Part shown: piece by piece, positions 1,906 through 10,639 of the stretch
Numbering within the stretch: the first letter of the stretch is position 1
Layout of the letters: every line of letters begins with the position of its first letter
Assembly: GCF_023699475.1 (NCBI RefSeq)
Contig: NZ_JALXFV010000005.1
Span: forward strand, 339,746-385,130
Origin: Halomarina rubra
GTDB lineage: Archaea; Halobacteriota; Halobacteria; Halobacteriales; Haloarculaceae
DNA: 45,385 bases
Direction: 5' to 3'
The notes under the pieces: generated by a model
Told to the model about the DNA's origin: nothing
The model's database searches: none
Seen by the model: only the letters and a program-made list of their open reading frames with translations
Program-made: the position numbers and the translations under genes

Positions 1906-2640
1906 TCAGTCGGCAGCGACGTCGGTCCGAACCGCGCGGACGTGGTCGGTGAAGTTCTCGAACAGTCGTTTGGCCTCGCAGGCCGCCGCGTAGTTCTCCG
2001 GCGTGATGCCCGCGAGCACGGACTCGACGCGCTCGTCGTCGAGGAACGCCTTGCCCCGAGTCACCTCGCGAGCGGTCGCCTGGTCGTACTCGGGGTGGAA
2101 CTGGACGCCGAAGGCGTCGCCGACCCGGAAGCCGTGGACGCCGTACTCGTTCTCGGCGAACACCGTCGCGTCGTCCGGGAGGTCGGTGACGGCGTCGCCG
2201 TGGGTGGTGAAGACGGTGAACTCGTCGTCGAGGCCGGCGAGCAACGGCGTCTCGGCAGTCCGCTCGACGGTCCGGTAGCCGATTTCGAAGCCCGCCTCGG
2301 TGTCGCGCTGGCCCATCGCCCCGACGGTGCCGCCGAGCGCGCTGGCGAGCAGTTGGTGGCCGAAACAGACACCCAGGATGGGCAACCCGCGGTCGTGGGC
2401 CGCCGCGACCCACTCGCGGGTGTCGTGAATCCACTGCTCGTCGTCGTACGCCGAGGCCCTCGACCCCGTGACGACCACGCCGTCGTAGGGGACGGGGCCG
2501 TCGGCGGGCGACTTTGGTGGCAACTGCTCGTCGGTGACCGAGAACTCCGCGAGGTCCGCGTCCAGTTCCCGCCGGAAGTTCCGCCGGGTGCTCTCCTCGG
2601 CGAACGCGGCGTTCAGCAAGGCGAGTCGAAGCCGTTTCAT
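1906..2640 (-). CDS. Class I glutamine amidotransferase (GMP synthase-like GATase domain)
   Basis: A 244-residue stand-alone type 1 glutamine amidotransferase domain. The nucleophile elbow GVCFGHQ places the catalytic Cys at residue 92, and FHPEYD supplies His182 and Glu184, so the Cys-His-Glu triad is complete. Stand-alone GATases of this kind hydrolyse glutamine (or act as gamma-glutamyl hydrolases) and can serve a separate synthetase; they are often mis-annotated as GMP synthase. No synthetase partner lies nearby. The ATG at 2640 gives MKRLRLALLNAAF, the expected first beta strand. Its 3' end faces the HPP gene, with only 21 nt between the two stops. Confidence 0.85.
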   Translation of the reverse strand: MKRLRLALLNAAFAEESTRRNFRRELDADLAEFSVTDEQLPPKSPADGPVPYDGVVVTGSRASAYDDEQWIHDTREWVAAAHDRGLPILGVCFGHQLLASALGGTVGAMGQRDTEAGFEIGYRTVERTAETPLLAGLDDEFTVFTTHGDAVTDLPDDATVFAENEYGVHGFRVGDAFGVQFHPEYDQATAREVTRGKAFLDDERVESVLAGITPENYAAACEAKRLFENFTDHVRAVRTDVAAD

Positions 2641-2722: not shown

Positions 2723-2727
2723 AAAAA
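2723..2727 (-). terminator. T5 terminator tract of surface protein 1
   Basis: On the minus strand a T5 run lies about 28-32 nt after the stop codon of the 720-residue secreted protein. Archaeal RNA polymerase terminates at short U-tracts. The two paralogous genes have a T5 tract at a similar distance, which supports separate transcripts. Confidence 0.5.
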
Positions 2728-2754: not shown

Positions 2755-4917
2755 TCAGACGTCGGTGGAGACGGTGAGCGTCACCGTCTCGCCGGCACCG
2801 AGCGTCACCGTCTCGTAGCCCACGAGTTCCTGACCGGAGGCGTTCGCGCGGACGAAGCGGGTGTCGTCGCCGGGCAGTTCGTAGCCCGCGAACGTCACCG
2901 TCGTCCCGTCGCAGTCCTCGTCGGCCGTGAGCGTCACCGTCGCCGTCCCGGTGTCGGCGTCGTAGGCGATGGCCGAGTAGCGGACGTCACACGACCCGCT
3001 GGCCGCGCGGGCGGTCTCGCCGGGGTCGGGGACGTTGTGCGCACCGGTGCCCGCGCCGTCGCTGGTGAAGCTCGCGGCGTGCATCAGGCGCTCTTGGGTC
3101 CCGTAGAACGCGTCGGGGGAGTCACCGAGGTCCTCGATGACCGGACCGAACGCGAGGTCGAACTGGTAGGCCTCGTCGCCCGCCTCGACGCAGTCGAGGA
3201 CGACGGTCTGCTGGCTCACCTGCTCACCGTCGACGCTGGTGGTGACGGTGTACTCACCGTCCACGAGGCCGCTCCCGGAGATGGTCTGACCGGGGGCGAG
3301 CGTTCGGTCGACCGAGTAGCCGTCGGGGCCGTCGACGGTGACGCGGACCGCCACGTCGTTGGTGTTCGTGATGGTTCCGGCACCGCCCTCGGCGGTGCAC
3401 TCGTAGGTGACCGAGACGGGGTCGTAGGACTCCTCGACGCAGTCGACCGTCACGGTCCGCTCGTCGACGGTCTGGCCGCGGTAGCTCGTGGTGACGGTGT
3501 ACTCACCGTCGGCGAGGTCGGGGACGACCCACTCCTCGCCGGCACCGAGCGTCACCTGCTGGTCCGAGATGGTCGGCCCGTCGATGGTGACGTTCACCGC
3601 GACGTCGTTCGCGTTGGTGACGGTGAACTCCCCACCCATGTCGGTGCACTGGCTGAGCACCGAGACGGCACCGGGCGTCTCCTCGTCGCAGTCGACGGTG
3701 AGCATCTCCTCGCCGACCTGCTGGCCGGCGACGCTGGTGGTGACGGTGTACGCACCGTCGGCGAGGTTCACGAACAGGACGTCGTCGCCGGGGGCGACGG
3801 TCCGGGTCTCGTCGAAGCCCTCGGGACCGGTCACGGTGACGTTCACCGCGACGGCGTTGTCGTTGGCGATGGCGAACAGGCCGTCCGCACCGACACACGA
3901 CTGGGTCACCGACACCGGTTCGGGCGTCGGGTCCTCGAAGCAGTCGAACGTCACCGACTCCTGGCCGAGCAGGTCGCCCGCGAGCGTCCGCGAGGTGACC
4001 GTGTACTGGCCGTCGGTCAGGTCCGACAGCGACTGCTGGCTGTTGGCTTCGACGGTGAGCACCTGCTCGAACTCGTCGGGACCGTTCACCGTGACGGCCA
4101 CCGCCACGTCCTCGTCGTTCGCGACGGTCAGCTCACCGCCCAGCGCGGTGCAACGGTAGGTGACCGCGACGGGGTCGGGCGTCTCCTCCTCGCAGTCGAG
4201 CGTGAGCGTCTCCTCGCCGACGACGACGCCGTCGTCGCTGGTGGTGACGGTGTACGCACCGTCCGCGAGCGCGTCGTAGCTGACGTTCTCGCCCGCGCCG
4301 AGCGTCGCGGTCTGCTCGAACTCGTCGGGACCGTTGACGGTGACGTCGACGGCGACGTCGTTCTCGTTCGTGACGGTCAGGACGCCGCCTTCGGCCGTAC
4401 ACGTCGACTCGACGGTGACGGGGTCGGGCGTAGGGGTCACGTCCTCGCTGGGGCCACAGAACACGACGTTGCTGATGCCCGCGCGGACGCCACGGTCGTT
4501 GAACGCGGTGTACAGTTCGGTGTCACCGAGGACGCCGCCGCCGGCCTGGCCGGTGTAGTCGTAGACGTTCGTGGCACTGCCCTGGCCGCCCTTCACGGAG
4601 ACGAGGCCGACCGTCGCCGTCGACGTGAAGTCGATGCCGACGATCTCGGTGTCGTCCTTGAAGTAGCGGTCGGTGACGGTCAGTTCGGTGCCGTCGTCGA
4701 GCGTGAACTCGCTCTGTGTGGCGAGGTCACCGCCGTCGATCTTCCCGCGCAGTTCCAGACCTTCGGCCGCACAGATGCTCTCGGGGGGACTCGGCGCGTC
4801 GACCTCCGTCGGTTCGACGATCGCTGCGGCGGCGACACCACCGAAGCCGCCGGCGACGAGCACCGACGAGACGAGTAACATCGCCGTGACGGCGAGCGTG
4901 GTGGCCGAGCGGTTCAC
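2755..4917 (-). CDS. Secreted repeat protein 1 (five two-Cys beta repeats)
   Basis: A 720-residue secreted protein of unknown function. I chose GTG at 4917 (MNRSATTLAVTAMLLVSSV) because it gives a compact signal peptide and its GTGA overlaps the stop of a leader ORF, as in both paralogues; GTG at 4932 would add five residues. After the signal peptide (about 1-32) come an N-terminal domain (about 40-160, with Cys near each end), five repeats of about 82 residues (about 165-580) and a C-terminal module (about 583-720) containing ELPGDDTRFVRANASGQELV, shared with the two neighbours. Each repeat opens with a Cys, has TVTNxNDVAVxVTVxGP and DGxYTVTT, and closes with a DC motif, suggesting an Ig-like fold with one internal disulfide. 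There is no C-terminal membrane anchor. An adhesin or surface-layer accessory is plausible but inferred. Confidence 0.85.
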   Translation of the reverse strand: MNRSATTLAVTAMLLVSSVLVAGGFGGVAAAAIVEPTEVDAPSPPESICAAEGLELRGKIDGGDLATQSEFTLDDGTELTVTDRYFKDDTEIVGIDFTSTATVGLVSVKGGQGSATNVYDYTGQAGGGVLGDTELYTAFNDRGVRAGISNVVFCGPSEDVTPTPDPVTVESTCTAEGGVLTVTNENDVAVDVTVNGPDEFEQTATLGAGENVSYDALADGAYTVTTSDDGVVVGEETLTLDCEEETPDPVAVTYRCTALGGELTVANDEDVAVAVTVNGPDEFEQVLTVEANSQQSLSDLTDGQYTVTSRTLAGDLLGQESVTFDCFEDPTPEPVSVTQSCVGADGLFAIANDNAVAVNVTVTGPEGFDETRTVAPGDDVLFVNLADGAYTVTTSVAGQQVGEEMLTVDCDEETPGAVSVLSQCTDMGGEFTVTNANDVAVNVTIDGPTISDQQVTLGAGEEWVVPDLADGEYTVTTSYRGQTVDERTVTVDCVEESYDPVSVTYECTAEGGAGTITNTNDVAVRVTVDGPDGYSVDRTLAPGQTISGSGLVDGEYTVTTSVDGEQVSQQTVVLDCVEAGDEAYQFDLAFGPVIEDLGDSPDAFYGTQERLMHAASFTSDGAGTGAHNVPDPGETARAASGSCDVRYSAIAYDADTGTATVTLTADEDCDGTTVTFAGYELPGDDTRFVRANASGQELVGYETVTLGAGETVTLTVSTDV

Positions 4918-4988
4918 GACGAACCACCCCACACGGACGAGAGAGAGTCGTTCGCGGCGACCTGCCGCGCGAATGTCGTGTAATGCAT
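4914..4988 (-). CDS. Leader ORF upstream of secreted repeat protein 1 (24 aa)
   Basis: A short ORF beginning MHYTTFARQV and ending GGSS, 24 residues. Its ATG lies about 37 nt downstream of the TATA box centre, so the mRNA leader would be about 10 nt. Its TGA overlaps the GTG of the surface-protein gene (GTGA, 4 nt), the classic layout for termination-reinitiation coupling. The GGGGTGG just before the overlap resembles a Shine-Dalgarno site for the downstream start. The peptide sequence does not resemble the leaders of the two paralogues, but position, length and overlap do. Whether it is translated is inferred, not shown. Confidence 0.5.
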   Translation of the reverse strand: MHYTTFARQVAANDSLSSVWGGSS

Positions 4989-5020
4989 TCAGTCAGAATA
5001 TCGGGACTTTCTGTCTTTGT

Positions 5021-5030
5021 TATTATATTG
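5021..5030 (-). promoter_or_regulatory. TATA box of leader ORF / secreted protein 1
   Basis: Read on the minus strand this is CAATATAATA in an AT-rich patch inside GC-rich DNA. A start site about 26-27 nt downstream would fall near 4999, about 10 nt before the leader ORF and about 80 nt before the surface-protein start. Confidence 0.55.
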
Positions 5031-5250
5031 ACAACCCTCGACTCACCGGGCTACATCCCTCGTTGAGTCTCGACGACCGGTCGAGCAGTTCGGTTCGAAC
5101 CCGTCCGGAACGCCACGACGAGCGGTTACACGGTGACTACCGGGGATTTCGGTCGGTTCGACGGCGACGGGTCCGTTCGCCGGGGTCATGGCCACCCACA
5201 CACCGACCCGACAGCGTACGGAGCCTGCGGCTCGCGGGTGGAGCGTCGAT

Positions 5251-5255
5251 AAAAA
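5251..5255 (-). terminator. T5 terminator tract of secreted protein 2
   Basis: T5 run on the minus strand, 23-27 nt after the stop codon of secreted protein 2 and upstream of the promoter of secreted protein 1, in the same relative position as in the two paralogous units. Confidence 0.5.
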
Positions 5256-5277
5256 CAGTGGTCGGTTGGCGTGTGAT

Positions 5278-6945
5278 TCAGGCCGTCGCTTCCGAGTCGT
5301 CACCGTCGAGGTCGATGGTGACCGTACCGGAGTCACCAGCGCCGAGGGTGACCGTCTGGTAGTCGACGAGTTCCTGACCGTCCGCGTTCGCGCGGACGAA
5401 GGTGGTGTCGTCGCCGGGCAGTTCGTAGCCCGCAAGCGTCAGCGTGACACCCTCGCAGTCGGCGTCGCCGTCGACGCTGACCGAGAGCGTGACCTCGCCG
5501 GTCTCGCCGTCGTAGCTCACCGGCGTGTAGCTGACGTGACAGCCCGCGAGGGACTTCGTCACGTTCTCGCCGGGCACCATGTAGCTGCCCGTCACGGTGC
5601 CGTCGGCGAGGACGGTCTGGGCCTGCAGGAGGCGGCCCTGCGTGCCGTAGAAGTCCTTCTCGTCGTCGGCGTCGTCGCCGTCGACGCCGAGGTTCTCGAT
5701 GACCTGGCCGGCCGCGACGTCGATCTGGTAGGCGGGCATCTCGCCGTCACCCATGTCGCCGTCACCGTCGTCGCCATCGCCAGCATCGCCGTCGTCACCG
5801 TCGTCGCCGTCACCAGCATCGCCGTCGCCGTTGTCGCCGTCGCCAGCGTCACCGTCACCGTTGTCACCGTCGTCCGCACAGTCGACTACGACGGTCGTCT
5901 CGCCGACGACCTCACCGCCGACGATGGTGGTGACGTTGTACTCGCCGTCCGGCACGTTCTCGAACGTGAGGTTCTCGCCCGCGGCGATGGTCTCGGTCAG
6001 CGACGCGTCGCCGCTGACTTCGATGGTGACCGGCACGTCGTTGTCGTTCGTCACGGTCGCGTTCGCACCGTCCGCACCGCAGACGACCTCCACGCTGACC
6101 TCACTGTCGGTCAGACAGTCGACCACGACCGTCTGCACGCCGACTTCCGTGCCGTCGTACAGCGTGGTCACGTCGAACTCGTTGTTCTGGACGCCGGTGT
6201 ACGTCTGGTTCTCGCCGGGAGCGAGCGTCAGCGTCCGCCCGCCGACGTCGACGTCCACCGCCACGTCGTTCTCGTTGCTCACCGTCACCGTCGCCCCGTC
6301 GACGCCGCACTGAACGTCGACGTCGACCTCACCGATTGCGGGACAGTCGACCACGACCGTCTCGGTCGCGATCTCGCGGCCGTCGACGATGGTGGTGACG
6401 TTGTACTCGCCGTCTGCGACACCCTCGAACGTGAGGCTCTCGCCCGCGGCGATGGTCTCGGTCAGCGACGCGTCACCGCCAATCTCGACGGTGATGGGCG
6501 CGTCGTTGTCGTTCGTCACGGTCGCCATCGCGCCGTCGACACCGCACGTGTAGTCGACGTTAGCGCCCTCCGGGCCACACTCCTCCGGAGCCTCGTAGAC
6601 GCCGTCACCGAGGATGCCCACGAACGCGATGGACTGAATCTGGTACTGGTCTGCCAGCGTGATGGACAGACTCGTCGCGCTGAGGACCTCGACGATGCCG
6701 CCGCGGTCCTCGCTGTCGATCGTGATGGTCTCGTACGTTCCTGCGGTCGTGTTGTAGACGTCGATCTCCGCACTGCCGGTCGCGAGCGCGGTCACGTCGA
6801 TGCCGGCGACGTTGACGACGTTACAGCTGTCGAACGTCACGTCCGCGACGTCCTGCCGTTGCGCGGGCACGTTGACGAGCATGCCGGCCCCGACGGCCGA
6901 CGTGACGAGCAACGCGGTCATGACGACAGCTACGAGCCGTCTCAT
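5278..6945 (-). CDS. Secreted repeat protein 2 (three two-Cys beta repeats, Asp-Gly linker)
   Basis: A 555-residue secreted paralogue of its neighbours. The ATG at 6945 gives a Sec-type signal peptide (MRRLVAVVMTALLVTSAVGA); the frame is open 27 codons further up, but that extension is unlike a signal peptide and collides with the leader ORF. Order of parts: N-domain (about 28-125, one Cys, ending in ECGPEG), three repeats of about 77 residues (about 130-355), an Asp/Gly-rich linker (about 356-401) and the shared C-module (about 401-555). Repeats 2 and 3 are nearly identical, also in DNA, to repeats 4 and 5 of secreted protein 3. An AGGTG sequence about 9 nt before the start could act as a Shine-Dalgarno site. 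No membrane anchor or lipobox is visible, so attachment to the cell is unknown. Confidence 0.85.
   Translation of the reverse strand: MRRLVAVVMTALLVTSAVGAGMLVNVPAQRQDVADVTFDSCNVVNVAGIDVTALATGSAEIDVYNTTAGTYETITIDSEDRGGIVEVLSATSLSITLADQYQIQSIAFVGILGDGVYEAPEECGPEGANVDYTCGVDGAMATVTNDNDAPITVEIGGDASLTETIAAGESLTFEGVADGEYNVTTIVDGREIATETVVVDCPAIGEVDVDVQCGVDGATVTVSNENDVAVDVDVGGRTLTLAPGENQTYTGVQNNEFDVTTLYDGTEVGVQTVVVDCLTDSEVSVEVVCGADGANATVTNDNDVPVTIEVSGDASLTETIAAGENLTFENVPDGEYNVTTIVGGEVVGETTVVVDCADDGDNGDGDAGDGDNGDGDAGDGDDGDDGDAGDGDDGDGDMGDGEMPAYQIDVAAGQVIENLGVDGDDADDEKDFYGTQGRLLQAQTVLADGTVTGSYMVPGENVTKSLAGCHVSYTPVSYDGETGEVTLSVSVDGDADCEGVTLTLAGYELPGDDTTFVRANADGQELVDYQTVTLGAGDSGTVTIDLDGDDSEATA
5742..5877 (-). 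repeat. Asp-Gly codon repeat tract of secreted protein 2
   Basis: Imperfect tandem array of GAC/GGC/GCC-type triplets encoding about 45 residues of alternating DGD, NGD and AGD units between the last beta repeat and the C-module. It forms a flexible, highly negative linker and, at DNA level, a simple-sequence tract prone to changes in length in multiples of three. Confidence 0.8.
6056..6326 (-). repeat. Long direct repeat shared with secreted protein 3 (copy A)
   Basis: Positions 6056-6134 match 8170-8248 without a difference (79 bp), and 6170-6326 matches 8284-8440 with two differences that I found. Both copies are in the same orientation and encode the same two beta repeats, so the pair could recombine to delete or fuse the genes, or be kept alike by gene conversion. 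Confidence 0.85.
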
Positions 6946-7007
6946 CGATACACCTGCACACTGGGAGCGGGCCGGGACGACCCACCTGTGATGGTTTCCG
7001 AATCCAT
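6942..7007 (-). CDS. Leader ORF upstream of secreted repeat protein 2 (21 aa)
   Basis: A 21-residue ORF beginning MDSETITGG and ending VQVYR. Its ATG is 30 nt downstream of the TATA-box centre, so the transcript would start only 2-3 nt before it and the ORF would be translated leaderless. Its TGA overlaps the ATG of the surface-protein gene (ATGA, 6945-6942). The first four residues, MDSE, and the first 12 nt are identical to the leader of secreted protein 3. The first 17 nt can form a hairpin, ATGG-A-TT-CGG-AA-A-CCAT. Translation is inferred. Confidence 0.55.
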   Translation of the reverse strand: MDSETITGGSSRPAPSVQVYR

Positions 7008-7032
7008 GCAACCACCCCTTCCACAAAGTCAG

Positions 7033-7043
7033 GTATTGTTACA
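7033..7043 (-). promoter_or_regulatory. Conserved promoter element of unit 2
   Basis: On the minus strand this reads TGTAACAATAC. Unit 3 has TGTAACTATAC at exactly the same distance from its leader ATG, with a shared AACCT just upstream in both. The A/T-rich half is placed as a TATA box for a start site immediately before the leader ORF. Confidence 0.65.
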
Positions 7044-7286
7044 AGTAGGTTTTCAGCTATTATCGTCGAGATACCACGACCCGGACCACTGGTCGAGAAA
7101 ACCGCAACACGGAGCCGCGTTAACAGTTCCTAAAAGTCCCAAACCGATGTTATAACTCCTATACTGAAGGTCAGTTTCTACTGTCTTTCTAGCCAGTTTT
7201 TGTTTTCTCCAGTCACTTCCAACGCCATCGCAGCGACAGGAGTGGCACGAAGTCCGAACCCGTCGGTCGACGGTCGTCGGGTGTCG

Positions 7287-7291
7287 AAAAA
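7287..7291 (-). terminator. T5 terminator tract of secreted protein 3
   Basis: T5 run on the minus strand about 29-33 nt past the stop codon of secreted protein 3, matching the layout of the other two units. Confidence 0.5.
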
Positions 7292-7319
7292 TGAGTCGGA
7301 CAGCGTCGACGCGTCGTCG

Positions 7320-9554
7320 CTATCCGTCGAGGTCGATGGTGACCGTGCCGGACTCGCCGGCACCGAGCGTCACCGTCTCGTAGTCGACGAGTTCCTGGCC
7401 GTCCGCGTTCGCGCGGACGAAGGTGGTGTCGTCGCCGGGCAGTTCGTAGCCCGCGAGCGTCAGCGTGACACCCTCGCAGTCCGCACCGTCCGCGACGCTC
7501 ACGCTCAGCGTCACTTCACCGGTCTCGCCGTCGTAGCTGACCGGGTCGTAGCTGACCGCACAGCCCGCGAGGTCCTTCGTGACCTCGCCGGTTGGCACGT
7601 TGTAGCTGCCGGTGACCGTGCCGTCGGCGAGGACCGTCTGGGCCTGCAGGAGGCGGCCCTGCGTGCCGTAGAACGCGTCCTCGTCGGCACCGAGGTTCTC
7701 GATGACCTGGCCGGCCGCGACGTCGATCTGGTAGGCGGGCATCTCGCCGTCACCAGCGTCACCGTCGCCGGAGTCACCGTCACCAGCGTCACCGTCGCCG
7801 GCATCGCCGTCGTCGCCATCGCCAGCATCGCCGTCACCGTCGTCACCATCGCCGGTGTCGCCGTCACCAGCGTCACCGTCGCCAGCGTCGCCGTCACCGC
7901 TGTCGCCATCGCCAGCGTCGCCATCACCGTTGTCGCCGTCTCCGGCATCGCCGTCACCAGCGTCACCGTCACCGTTGTCACCGTCGTCCGCACAGTCGAC
8001 CACGACGGTCTGGGTGCTGATGACCTCACCGCCGACGATGGTGGTGACGTTGTACTCGCCGTCCGGCACGTTCTCGAACGTGAGGGTGCCACCGGCCTCG
8101 ATGGTCTCGGTCAGCGACGCGTCGCCGCTGACTTCGATGGTGACCGGCACGTCGTTCGGGTTGGTGACCGTCGCGTTCGCACCGTCCGCACCGCAGACGA
8201 CCTCCACGCTGACCTCACTGTCGGTCAGACAGTCGACCACGACCGTCTCGGTCGCGACCGTCGTCCCGTCGACGGAGGTCGTGACGTCGAACTCGTTGTT
8301 CTGGACGCCGGTGTACGTCTGGTTCTCGCCGGGGGCGAGCGTCAGCGTCCGCCCGCCGACGTCGACGTCCACCGCCACGTCGTTCTCGTTGCTCACCGTC
8401 ACCGTCGCCCCGTCGACACCGCACTGAACGTCGACGTCGACACCGCCGACGTCGGGGCAGTCGATGTTGACGGTCTTCGTCCCGACCGCCTCACCGTCGA
8501 CGATGGTCTCTATCTCGTAGCTCCCGTCGTCGAGCCCTTCGAGCGTGAGGTTCTCGCCCGCGCCGATCTGGATCGGGCCACGGTCGTTGACGGTCACGTT
8601 GACCGCCACGTCGTTCGGGTTCTCGACGGTCAGGTCACCGCCCTCGTCGGTACACTGCAAGCTGAGAGTGACTTGGCTCGGTCCGTCACAGTCGACGGTG
8701 ACCGTCACGGTACTGATTGTCTCGCCACCGGCGCTCGTCTCCACCTCGTAGCTCCCGTCGTCGAGACCTTCGAAGGTGGTGTTCGCACCGGGTGCGACGG
8801 TCCGGGTCTCCCCGTCGACCGTGACGTTGACCGCGACGTCGTTCGGGTTGGTCGCCGTCAGGTCACCACCCTCGGCCGTACACTGCAGGTCGAGGGTGAC
8901 GCGACTCGGACCGTCGCAGTCGATGTTGACGGTCTTCGTCCCGACCGCCTCGCCGCCGTAGAGCGTCGTGACCTCGTAGCTCCCGTCGTCGAGGCCCTCG
9001 AACGTGGTGTTCTCGCCCGCCCCGATCTGGATCGGGCCGCGGTCGTTGATCGAGACGTTGACCGCCACGTCGTTCGGGTTCTCGACGGTCAGGTCACCGC
9101 CCTCGTCGGTACACTGCAGGCCGAGGTCGACCTGACTCAGGTCGCCGGCGTCCGTCGGGCCACAGTCACTCGGGTTCCGCAGGGACTCACCACCGATGGT
9201 GAGACCGAGGAGCTCGTAGCCGCTGACGGTGGCCAGACTCAGGTCGTCCTGGAGGTCCAACCGCAGCGTGTCGTACTCGTCGGCGTCGCCGTCGAGCAGG
9301 TCGTTCCCGTCGACGGTCAGCGACTCGGTGGCACCCGCCGACACGTTGTACAACGTCAGTGTCGCGTCGGCGTCGGTGACGGACGTCAGCTCTAACCCGA
9401 GGAGTTCGACCTCGTTACAGCCGACGAAGTTCACGTCGACGCCGTCGAGCGTCCCGTCGGGTCCGTCCTGGATGGGAGCGCCGACGATGGCACCAGCCCC
9501 CATCGAAGACAGCACGACCGCCGCTATCATCAGGACGGCTGTCGCTCGTTTCAT
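7320..9554 (-). CDS. Secreted repeat protein 3 (five two-Cys beta repeats, long Asp-Gly linker)
   Basis: A 744-residue secreted protein with a Sec signal peptide ([20 protein letters not shown]), an N-domain (about 25-135, ending DCGPTDAG), five repeats of about 76 residues (about 140-521), a long Asp/Gly linker (about 522-604) and the C-module shared with both neighbours (about 605-744; contains [17 protein letters not shown]). Repeats 1-3 are of the [20 protein letters not shown] type, repeats 4-5 of the [20 protein letters not shown] type found in secreted protein 2, so the gene looks like a mosaic. Cysteines are rare in haloarchaeal proteins, and two per repeat at fixed sites points to disulfide-locked extracellular domains. 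The ATG overlaps the stop of a leader ORF. Function is unknown; a surface fibre or adhesin is an inference. Confidence 0.85.
7742..7987 (-). repeat. Asp-Gly codon repeat tract of secreted protein 3
   Basis: About 80 codons of imperfect DGD/AGD/NGD/SGD units made from GAC, GGT/GGC and GCT/GCC triplets. It is roughly twice as long as the homologous tract in secreted protein 2 although the sequences on either side are nearly the same, so the tract itself has expanded or contracted. Confidence 0.85.
8170..8440 (-). repeat. Long direct repeat shared with secreted protein 2 (copy B)
   Basis: Partner of the repeat at 6056-6326, same orientation, about 2.1 kb away. It encodes most of beta repeat 4 and part of repeat 5 of secreted protein 3. 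Confidence 0.85.
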
Positions 9555-9622
9555 CTGTGGTCCCTCTCGTCGATGTCGGCAGGTCCTCCTCTCCCGCCGG
9601 ACAGTGATGGTTCCGAATCCAT
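9551..9622 (-). CDS. Leader ORF upstream of secreted repeat protein 3 (23 aa)
   Basis: A 23-residue ORF beginning MDSEPSLSGG and ending DERDHR. Its ATG is 30 nt from the TATA-box centre, predicting a near-leaderless start, and its TGA overlaps the ATG of the surface-protein gene (ATGA, 9554-9551). The MDSE start and the small hairpin (ATGG-A-TT-CGG-AA-CCAT) are shared with unit 2, although one base has been lost in the hairpin, shifting the frame after residue 4 so that the rest of the peptide differs. Despite that, the stop still overlaps the main start. Translation is inferred. Confidence 0.55.
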   Translation of the reverse strand: MDSEPSLSGGRGGPADIDERDHR

Positions 9623-9880
9623 GCGTCTCAGTCGAAAGGTGCTTCTTGTATAGTTACAGGTTGCAAAAATGGAAAGTATTTCTAGAGTGCAGCATTGACT
9701 GACACGTTCTCGAAAACCACCGGACTGCAGTCGATAAAGCTCAGCGATATGCGACGAGAGAGCCGGCGTACCGCGTCGGTACCGACACGATTTCGGATAT
9801 GTAACAAAATTCCGACAGTCACAGAACGGGACCGACTGGTCCGGCGTGGGGACGACCGCCACTGCCCCACCTCACGGCAC
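9623..9880. other. AT-richer spacer upstream of secreted protein 3
   Basis: Carries the promoter of the third surface-protein unit near 9650 and otherwise unassigned sequence of lower GC than the surroundings. No coding region with a credible composition is visible on either strand. Confidence 0.55.
9648..9658 (-). promoter_or_regulatory. Conserved promoter element of unit 3
   Basis: Reads TGTAACTATAC on the minus strand and matches the element of unit 2 except for one base, with identical spacing to the leader ATG. It is placed as the TATA/BRE region. Confidence 0.65.
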
Positions 9881-10639
9881 TCAGGATTCGAGGAACCCGA
9901 GCAGTTCGTCGTTCGCGACCCGCGAGGACTCGACGTGTGCGAGGTGGCGACCCGGAACCGAGCGGAACTCCCCACGCGGTAGGGCGTCGGCGAGGTCACG
10001 GCCCGCGTCGGCGGGCACCGCGGGGTCGTCGGCACCGTGACAGACGAGCGCCGGGACCGTAATCTCGTACGGGTCGGCACAGACGTAGTCACGGAGCGCG
10101 GCGACCTGCGCGTCGCGGACCGCCTCGGGCGCGTCGTCGTCACGCCACTTCTCGATGCCGGCGACGACCTCGCGCTGGCGCTCGAAGAACTCCTGGGAGA
10201 GACACGGCGCGAGCGAGTCCGGGCCGCGTCCGCCCATCACCGACAGCATCCCGTCGTCGAACTCGTCGCCCGACAGGGCGGTCCCGAACAGCGCGAGACT
10301 GCGGACGCGCCCCGACTCGCGGGCGTACTCCAGGGCGGCCATCCCGCCGAGGCCCGCACCGACGAGGTGGACTCGCTTGGCACCGTGTGCGGAGAGGACG
10401 GCGTCGAGGTCCGCCGCCAGCGTCGCCACGTCGAACTCGCTCGCGGTGGTCTCGGAGCGCCCGCTCCCGCGCAGGTCGGTGACGAGTGCCTCGAACGGCC
10501 CGTCGACGGCCGGGTGCTGCCACGCCCACTGCCACGCGGCGTAGCCCAGTTCTCCGACGAACGCGACGGTGTCGGCGTCGGGTCCGGCCTCGCTGCTCTC
10601 GTAGTAGAGTCGCGCGTCATCGCGCTCGACGATCGGCAT
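9881..10639 (-). CDS. Alpha/beta hydrolase-fold protein lacking the nucleophile Ser
   Basis: A 252-residue alpha/beta hydrolase-fold protein. DLRGSGRS (55-62) and the elbow HLVGAGLGGMAALEYA (from about 91) are typical of the family, as are HGADDPAVP (acid position) and RHLAHVE (His position) near the C-terminus. In the elbow, where active members have G-x-S-x-G, this protein has G94-A-G96-L-G98, so the expected nucleophile Ser is Gly. Unless another residue substitutes, it should not act as a serine hydrolase; a cofactor-independent or non-catalytic role is possible. It lies 76 nt beyond the 3' end of alaS on the same strand and could be read through from it. Confidence 0.8.
   Translation of the reverse strand: MPIVERDDARLYYESSEAGPDADTVAFVGELGYAAWQWAWQHPAVDGPFEALVTDLRGSGRSETTASEFDVATLAADLDAVLSAHGAKRVHLVGAGLGGMAALEYARESGRVRSLALFGTALSGDEFDDGMLSVMGGRGPDSLAPCLSQEFFERQREVVAGIEKWRDDDAPEAVRDAQVAALRDYVCADPYEITVPALVCHGADDPAVPADAGRDLADALPRGEFRSVPGRHLAHVESSRVANDELLGFLES

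Follow-up and report, generated by a model that had tools for sequence, protein, structure and literature searches.

Conserved stop/start-coupled leader ORFs precede a family of exported-protein genes in Halomarina

Introduction

Why would a gene family keep a throw-away first cistron? This question is raised by a locus in a stretch of 45,385 nt, here called the window, which lies within contig C12 of a 4.07 Mb genome (the source genome). The locus consists of three units in tandem on the minus strand, flanked by an alpha/beta-hydrolase gene and a glutamine-amidotransferase-like gene (Table 1). The main gene of each unit is preceded by a leader ORF of little more than 20 codons that ends within the start of the main gene. 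The nearest named record that carries this locus is Halomarina oriensis (G002; L047). The initial annotation of the window had proposed that ribosomes start on the leader in leaderless mode and reinitiate on the exported protein, and that this might report ribosome or export status in the manner of a leader-peptide attenuator. Here, we describe how far the leader is conserved, how often such leaders occur by chance and which of these proposals fits the sequences.

Results and Discussion

Three tandem genes with coupled leader ORFs

The main ORFs of all three units open with a signal-peptide-like segment, and the proteins can be aligned as paralogues that have a C-terminal domain in common, as expected from their annotation as secreted paralogues. 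No Pfam or NCBIfam family scored above cut-off in the main proteins. A T5 tract, also annotated previously, lies 22-28 nt past the stop codon in all three units; for any 60-nt segment of the window, the probability of a T5 is 0.4%. The leader ORFs and their 4-nt overlaps were confirmed in the sequence exactly as they had been described. In unit 1, the 71 nt from the leader ATG to the main start contain no in-frame stop. The TATA-like box that had been placed 30-37 nt before each leader is a TAACWA motif with the same start position relative to the leader ATG in each unit (Table 1).

The initial annotation also described the leaders of units 2 and 3 as differing in both length and frame. This needs a minor correction: the first four codons (MDSE) are common to both leaders because the DNA is related there, and they are followed in unit 3 by indels of -1 and +4 that restore the frame. 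Units 2 and 3 have in common blocks of 84-86% identical DNA (721 and 581 bp, between window positions 5280 and 9300), which points to duplication as the probable origin of the tandem, perhaps followed by exchange between the copies. Both units also contain a low-complexity GDGDAGDGD linker that differs in length, and the blocks and the linker together suggest gene conversion or recombination between the tandem copies.

Table 1. Features of the three-unit locus (window positions) and the leader of the wecC-like gene (contig positions where available). Leader peptides are given without the stop codon.
Feature	Position	Strand	Remarks
Glutamine-amidotransferase-like gene	1906-2640		flanking gene
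Unit 1, T5 tract (possible archaeal terminator)	2723..2727	-	
Unit 1, main gene (exported Ig-like-repeat protein)	2755..4917	-	GTG start, 720 aa
Unit 1, leader ORF	4914..4988	-	24 codons + TGA; MHYTTFARQVAANDSLSSVWGGSS; GTGA overlap with main GTG at 4914-4917
Unit 1, TAACAA promoter-like box	5017..5022	-	starts 34 nt 5' of leader ATG
Unit 2, T5 tract	5251..5255	-	
Unit 2, main gene (exported Ig-like-repeat protein)	5278..6945	-	ATG start, 555 aa
Unit 2, leader ORF	6942..7007	-	21 codons + TGA; MDSETITGGSSRPAPSVQVYR; ATGA overlap at 6942-6945
Unit 2, near-palindrome at leader start	6991-7007	-	ATGGATTCGGAAACCAT; altered forms in unit 3, G002 and G007
Unit 2, TAACAA box	7036..7041	-	starts 34 nt 5' of leader ATG
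Unit 3, T5 tract	7287..7291	-	
Unit 3, main gene (exported Ig-like-repeat protein)	7320..9554	-	ATG start, 744 aa
Unit 3, leader ORF	9551..9622	-	23 codons + TGA; ATGA overlap at 9551-9554
Unit 3, TAACTA box	9651..9656	-	starts 34 nt 5' of leader ATG
Alpha/beta-hydrolase gene	9881-10639		flanking gene
wecC-like gene, box and leader, source genome (G000)	C3:61363-61464		L202/L216
wecC-like gene, box and leader, G007	C6		L217
wecC-like gene, box and leader, G002	C45		L218

Conservation of the leader frame and overlap

Leaders of this kind were found at 12 loci: units 1-3, the syntenic gene in six other Halomarina-group genomes (G001, G002/H. oriensis, G004, G005, G006 and G007), the unlinked source-genome paralogues C9:59.6k and C9:308k, and the G002 orthologue of the latter. 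At every one of them, an ATG ORF of 20-25 codons ends in a TGA at position +1 of the main start, which yields a 4-nt overlap of either ATGA or GTGA. The leader was present in each genome where the syntenic gene was found; in G003, a 73%-complete draft, the gene is apparently absent. The orthologues of the unit 2 leader read MDSETITGGSSRPAIPEVYR in G002/H. oriensis and MDSDETITGGSSRPTNTTAGENR in G007, and the more divergent syntenic genes are preceded by MYSNQYVATTSRRSAVSTPLEGPE (G001), MALRKILPKGEAQRTAQLYRTKVP (G004), MVLRKLSSKDDAQFTAQLYRTEKP (G005) and MVCRLQPLDGGTVRYRRGVLA (G006). C9:59.6k, a relative of unit 1, has the leader MSDKISARVADESTRTSDSTWRAP, whereas C9:308k, to which an unbiased scan of source-genome stretches for coupled leaders pointed, has MGSNPEQAPSRRTNRNATSSRRSER, and its G002 orthologue has MGHSPARSVSSEPYRVSAERRRVCR.

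The distance from the leader ATG to the main start is 59, 62, 62, 68, 68, 71 (five loci), 74 and 74 nt. All of these are in the coupled phase, and the steps in length are multiples of three. Paralogues that share the C-terminal domain and differ in their N-termini have no leader. The leader frame is kept in all homologues found with the same kind of N-terminus; among these, loss of the frame, which the initial annotation had named as evidence against its proposal, did not occur.

Coupled leaders belong to the gene family

As a background, we used 449 source-genome genes with free upstream DNA, taken from 0.85 Mb (0.8 Mb of source-genome stretches plus the window). Seventeen of these (3.8%) have a coupled ATG ORF at 45-90 nt, units 2, 3 and C9:308k among them, compared with 12 of 12 at the leadered loci, which agrees with the earlier claim that the leaders exceed chance. 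Among the same 449 genes there is no excess of the coupled phase, with 34 open ATG frames in this phase versus 24 and 26 in the two others, and coupled leaders were therefore rejected as a general feature of the genome. This low background and the missing phase excess indicate that the coupled-leader architecture belongs to the gene family and not to the genome at large.

For an ATG placed at random 57-74 nt upstream in real intergenic DNA of the source genome, the probability of being both in the coupled phase and open is 0.193. Taken over eight mutually unalignable groups of leadered loci, a grouping that reflects the judgement of the analyst, this per-locus value gives a probability of about 2e-6.

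Position of the transcript start

The TAACNA motif starts 33-34 nt before the leader ATG at nine loci despite the varying leader length. In eight loci, the AAC of TAACWA occupies positions -33 to -31 relative to the leader ATG; in G001, it lies one nucleotide closer. The leaderless promoter consensus of the source genome has AAC at positions around -34 to -31, followed by TTAT around -29 to -26 relative to the ATG, and several paralogues without a leader (e.g., C3 and C9:508k of the source genome, and L196) have TAACAATA about 37-38 nt before the main ATG. As the spacing of the box at the leaders matches both this consensus and the position of the box in leaderless paralogues, we infer that the 5' end of the mRNA lies at the leader ATG or a few nucleotides before it. 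Scored with the source-genome promoter matrix, the leader promoters reached only modest values (-3.9 to +5.4), and other upstream places often scored higher. Because the matrix does not set the leader promoters apart, it was rejected as proof of start sites, and with its modest scores the presumed start is placed mainly by the fixed-spacing box.

Several leaderless exported paralogues (L066, L067, L049, L196, L194, L187 and L189) carry a TAAC[AT]AT box about 37 nt upstream of the main ATG. This box may be a shared non-consensus promoter element, and the genes that carry it possibly form a regulon of surface proteins.

Constraint on the peptide and on the architecture

In the group formed by the leaders of unit 2, G002 and G007, the 13 alignable codons contain four variable sites, all of which are third positions of the leader and synonymous in the leader frame only; the G007 leader also carries a 3-nt insertion. 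The third-position pattern fits translation of the leader with some constraint on the peptide or the sequence in this group. Elsewhere, substitutions by codon position number 5/5/9 between the G004 and G005 leaders and 14/13/10 between C9:308k and its G002 orthologue on C47, the latter without third-position preference. The leaders lack haloarchaeal codon bias, and their codon-usage scores are like those of non-coding DNA. A search for ATGGANNNNGA..(T)ITGG in 96 genomes of the family returned only the three orthologous loci, so this peptide is not a widespread motif. As only the length class, the frame and the overlap are kept elsewhere, and as the codon scores resemble those of non-coding DNA, it is unlikely that the peptide as such has a general function. 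What appears to be selected, as part of the reading that we prefer, is an architecture composed of an ATG at the 5' end, an open frame and a 4-nt overlap.

Proposed ribosome delivery by termination-reinitiation

The reading that best fits these observations, to which we give a probability of about 0.72, is that initiation takes place on a mini-cistron in near-leaderless mode and that termination-reinitiation then brings the ribosomes to the main gene. Each unit would be transcribed as a bicistronic mRNA with the 21-24-codon leader as its first cistron, beginning right at the 5' end or only a few bases into it. Ribosomes would initiate on the leader in the leaderless or near-leaderless mode that is usual for haloarchaea, translate it, terminate at its TGA and reinitiate on the overlapping ATG or GTG of the exported protein. 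The leader would in this way give translation to an mRNA with a 5' region of about 60-75 nt, and its benefit would probably lie in setting the level of this translation instead of sensing a signal. The part of the initial annotation that proposed a leaderless start followed by reinitiation has good support from the frame and overlap kept at 12 of 12 loci and by the length steps of three.

Gene pairs with a 4-nt overlap are strictly coupled in Haloferax volcanii (PMC6728339). Coupling is almost lost at a spacing of about 20 nt, and 15 nt of the upstream gene are enough for it in Escherichia coli (PMC10666635), so a leader of 60-75 nt would in principle be sufficient. Shine-Dalgarno-like pairing before the main start is variable, from -3.5 to -11.7 kcal/mol, and falls in the best 3% of the background in 4 of 10 cases; a motif of this kind aids reinitiation but is not required for it.

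Alternative explanations

The conserved DNA at the leader start may instead be a regulator-binding or core-promoter element, with the leader ORF as its by-product. The conserved TAACWA box would agree with this, as would the near-palindrome that lies at the presumed transcription start of unit 2 and recurs in altered form in unit 3, G002 and G007. However, the palindrome is missing from most of the other leadered loci, which nevertheless keep the ATG, the frame and the overlap; the changes fall at third positions of the leader, and an operator would leave the length steps of three unexplained. We consider this explanation unlikely. A sensor of the attenuator type, which would read ribosome, amino-acid or export status from the pace or stalling of translation on the leader and switch the output accordingly, seems slightly less probable still. 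The position of the leader and its coupling would permit sensing, and the peptide MDS(D)ETITGGSSRP is kept within one subgroup, but the leader sequences elsewhere in the family are unrelated and a leader also precedes the gene for a cytoplasmic enzyme (see below). The leaders show no structure beyond the shuffled expectation (MFE z -1.5 to +0.8), no T-tract of four or more and no regulatory or stalling codon run, and no terminator was found between the leader and the main start. As these hallmarks are missing and the peptides differ between loci, the sensing of ribosome or export status suggested by the initial annotation is not supported.

The main protein might also start further upstream in its own frame, in which case there would be no leader at all. 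In unit 2, G002 and G007, no stop interrupts this frame across the leader, but in unit 3 no start codon precedes position 9554 in the main frame, and the only one in unit 1 is a GTG 15 nt upstream. Moreover, the resulting extension of 20-30 residues would precede the signal peptide, and the substitutions among unit 2, G002 and G007 alter the main frame while leaving the leader frame unchanged. An N-terminal extension of the main protein is very improbable and was rejected on the basis of the missing upstream starts and this substitution pattern. Even less credible is a coincidence, which would draw on the frequent ATGA start of signal-peptide genes and on ATG frames that often stay open in GC-rich intergenic DNA. 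Such a coincidence is not especially improbable at a single locus (0.19 given an ATG, and 3.8% of genes overall), and ATGA is nearly automatic if A is the first base of the second codon, which is the case for many signal peptides. It is the 12 of 12 loci, in about eight unalignable groups and with a fixed box spacing, that argue against chance.

A coupled leader before a wecC-like gene

A search for the box plus an ATG uncovered a coupled leader of 22 codons (MTMSRxSxLxRRQRxSPxEGRR), with a TAACAAAG box, before a wecC-like UDP-N-acetylmannosamine-dehydrogenase gene in the source genome, G007 and G002 (Table 1). It was not found in G001, G004 or G005. Because this leader precedes the gene for a cytoplasmic sugar-nucleotide dehydrogenase, export is not what leadered genes have in common. 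In G008, G016 and G046, which represent three other genera, the wecC-like gene overlaps the end of an upstream ORF as ATGA, and the conserved tail of that ORF resembles NPFGDG.AS.RI. This pattern hints that the role of a lost upstream gene as supplier of ribosomes may be taken over by a mini-cistron.

More tentatively, haloarchaea may have a number of genes that exist as obligate second cistrons with no de novo start, for which a minimal, sequence-free mini-cistron at the 5' end only brings the ribosome. The wecC-like gene fits this possibility, as it overlaps an upstream ORF in three genera and has the 22-codon leader instead in the source genome, G007 and G002. If genes of this kind exist, the amount of their protein would be set by leaderless initiation together with the efficiency of reinitiation.

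Relation to known systems

The closest parallel is the class of leaderless coupled small ORFs described in mycobacteria, where the linkage is kept and the peptide is not (Shell et al. 2015, PMC4633059). Those ORFs encode 5-50 aa at the 5' end of the mRNA and overlap the next gene as RTGA, and their architecture is conserved above the peptide. Here, 20-25 aa are encoded at the 12 loci, all 12 overlaps are of the RTGA type, and frame and overlap are constant while the peptides are alike only within subgroups. The overlap is 4 nt at each locus, within the 1 or 4 nt of termination-reinitiation pairs. The mycobacterial class differs in that it occurs in a bacterium, with measured start sites and genome-wide enrichment (PMC4633059), whereas the leaders here are confined to a gene family and their 5' end is deduced from the box.

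The overlapping pairs of H. volcanii (Huber et al. 2019, 2023; PMC6728339, PMC10666635) come from the same kind of organism and have the same tetranucleotide overlap, with strict coupling shown there. However, they are composed of two full-length genes that often encode subunits of one complex, unlike the first cistron of 20-25 codons with a mostly unconserved peptide found here. H. volcanii also has uORFs of 15-31 aa before normal-sized genes (Babski et al. 2016, PMC4983044), but the accessible part of that report lists them only for 5' UTRs of 150-250 nt and mentions neither overlap nor conservation. A recent review considers that ribosome delivery by short ORFs is possibly widespread (PMC12548453).

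The architecture described here can also be set beside regulated leaders. Attenuators of the trp and his type and the mycobacterial cysteine leaders likewise place a short translated leader before a regulated gene. Leader-peptide attenuators contain a regulatory codon run and alternative hairpins or a terminator, none of which we found in the leaders here. In the literature searched, which lay largely outside the subscription journals, we found no archaeal example of coupled leader ORFs that are conserved. The kind of architecture is known from mycobacteria, and the conserved archaeal case appears to be new; judged by that literature, the present gene family would be the first in archaea with a conserved set of leaderless stop/start-coupled leaders. 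A further implication would be that short ORFs missed by annotation can decide the translation of exported proteins. The leaders of 59 to 74 nt provide natural constructs, with the leaderless paralogues as controls, for asking why an organism able to initiate directly on leaderless mRNAs retains such a first cistron.

The C-terminal domain of about 145 aa (AYQIDVAAG...FYGTQ.RLLQA...) in units 1-3 recurs in many exported proteins of Halomarina, where the N-termini linked to it are of repeat, beta-helix-like and Tat type. It corresponds to no Pfam or NCBIfam family and has strong matches only within the genus, as if it were a genus-specific surface-sorting domain.
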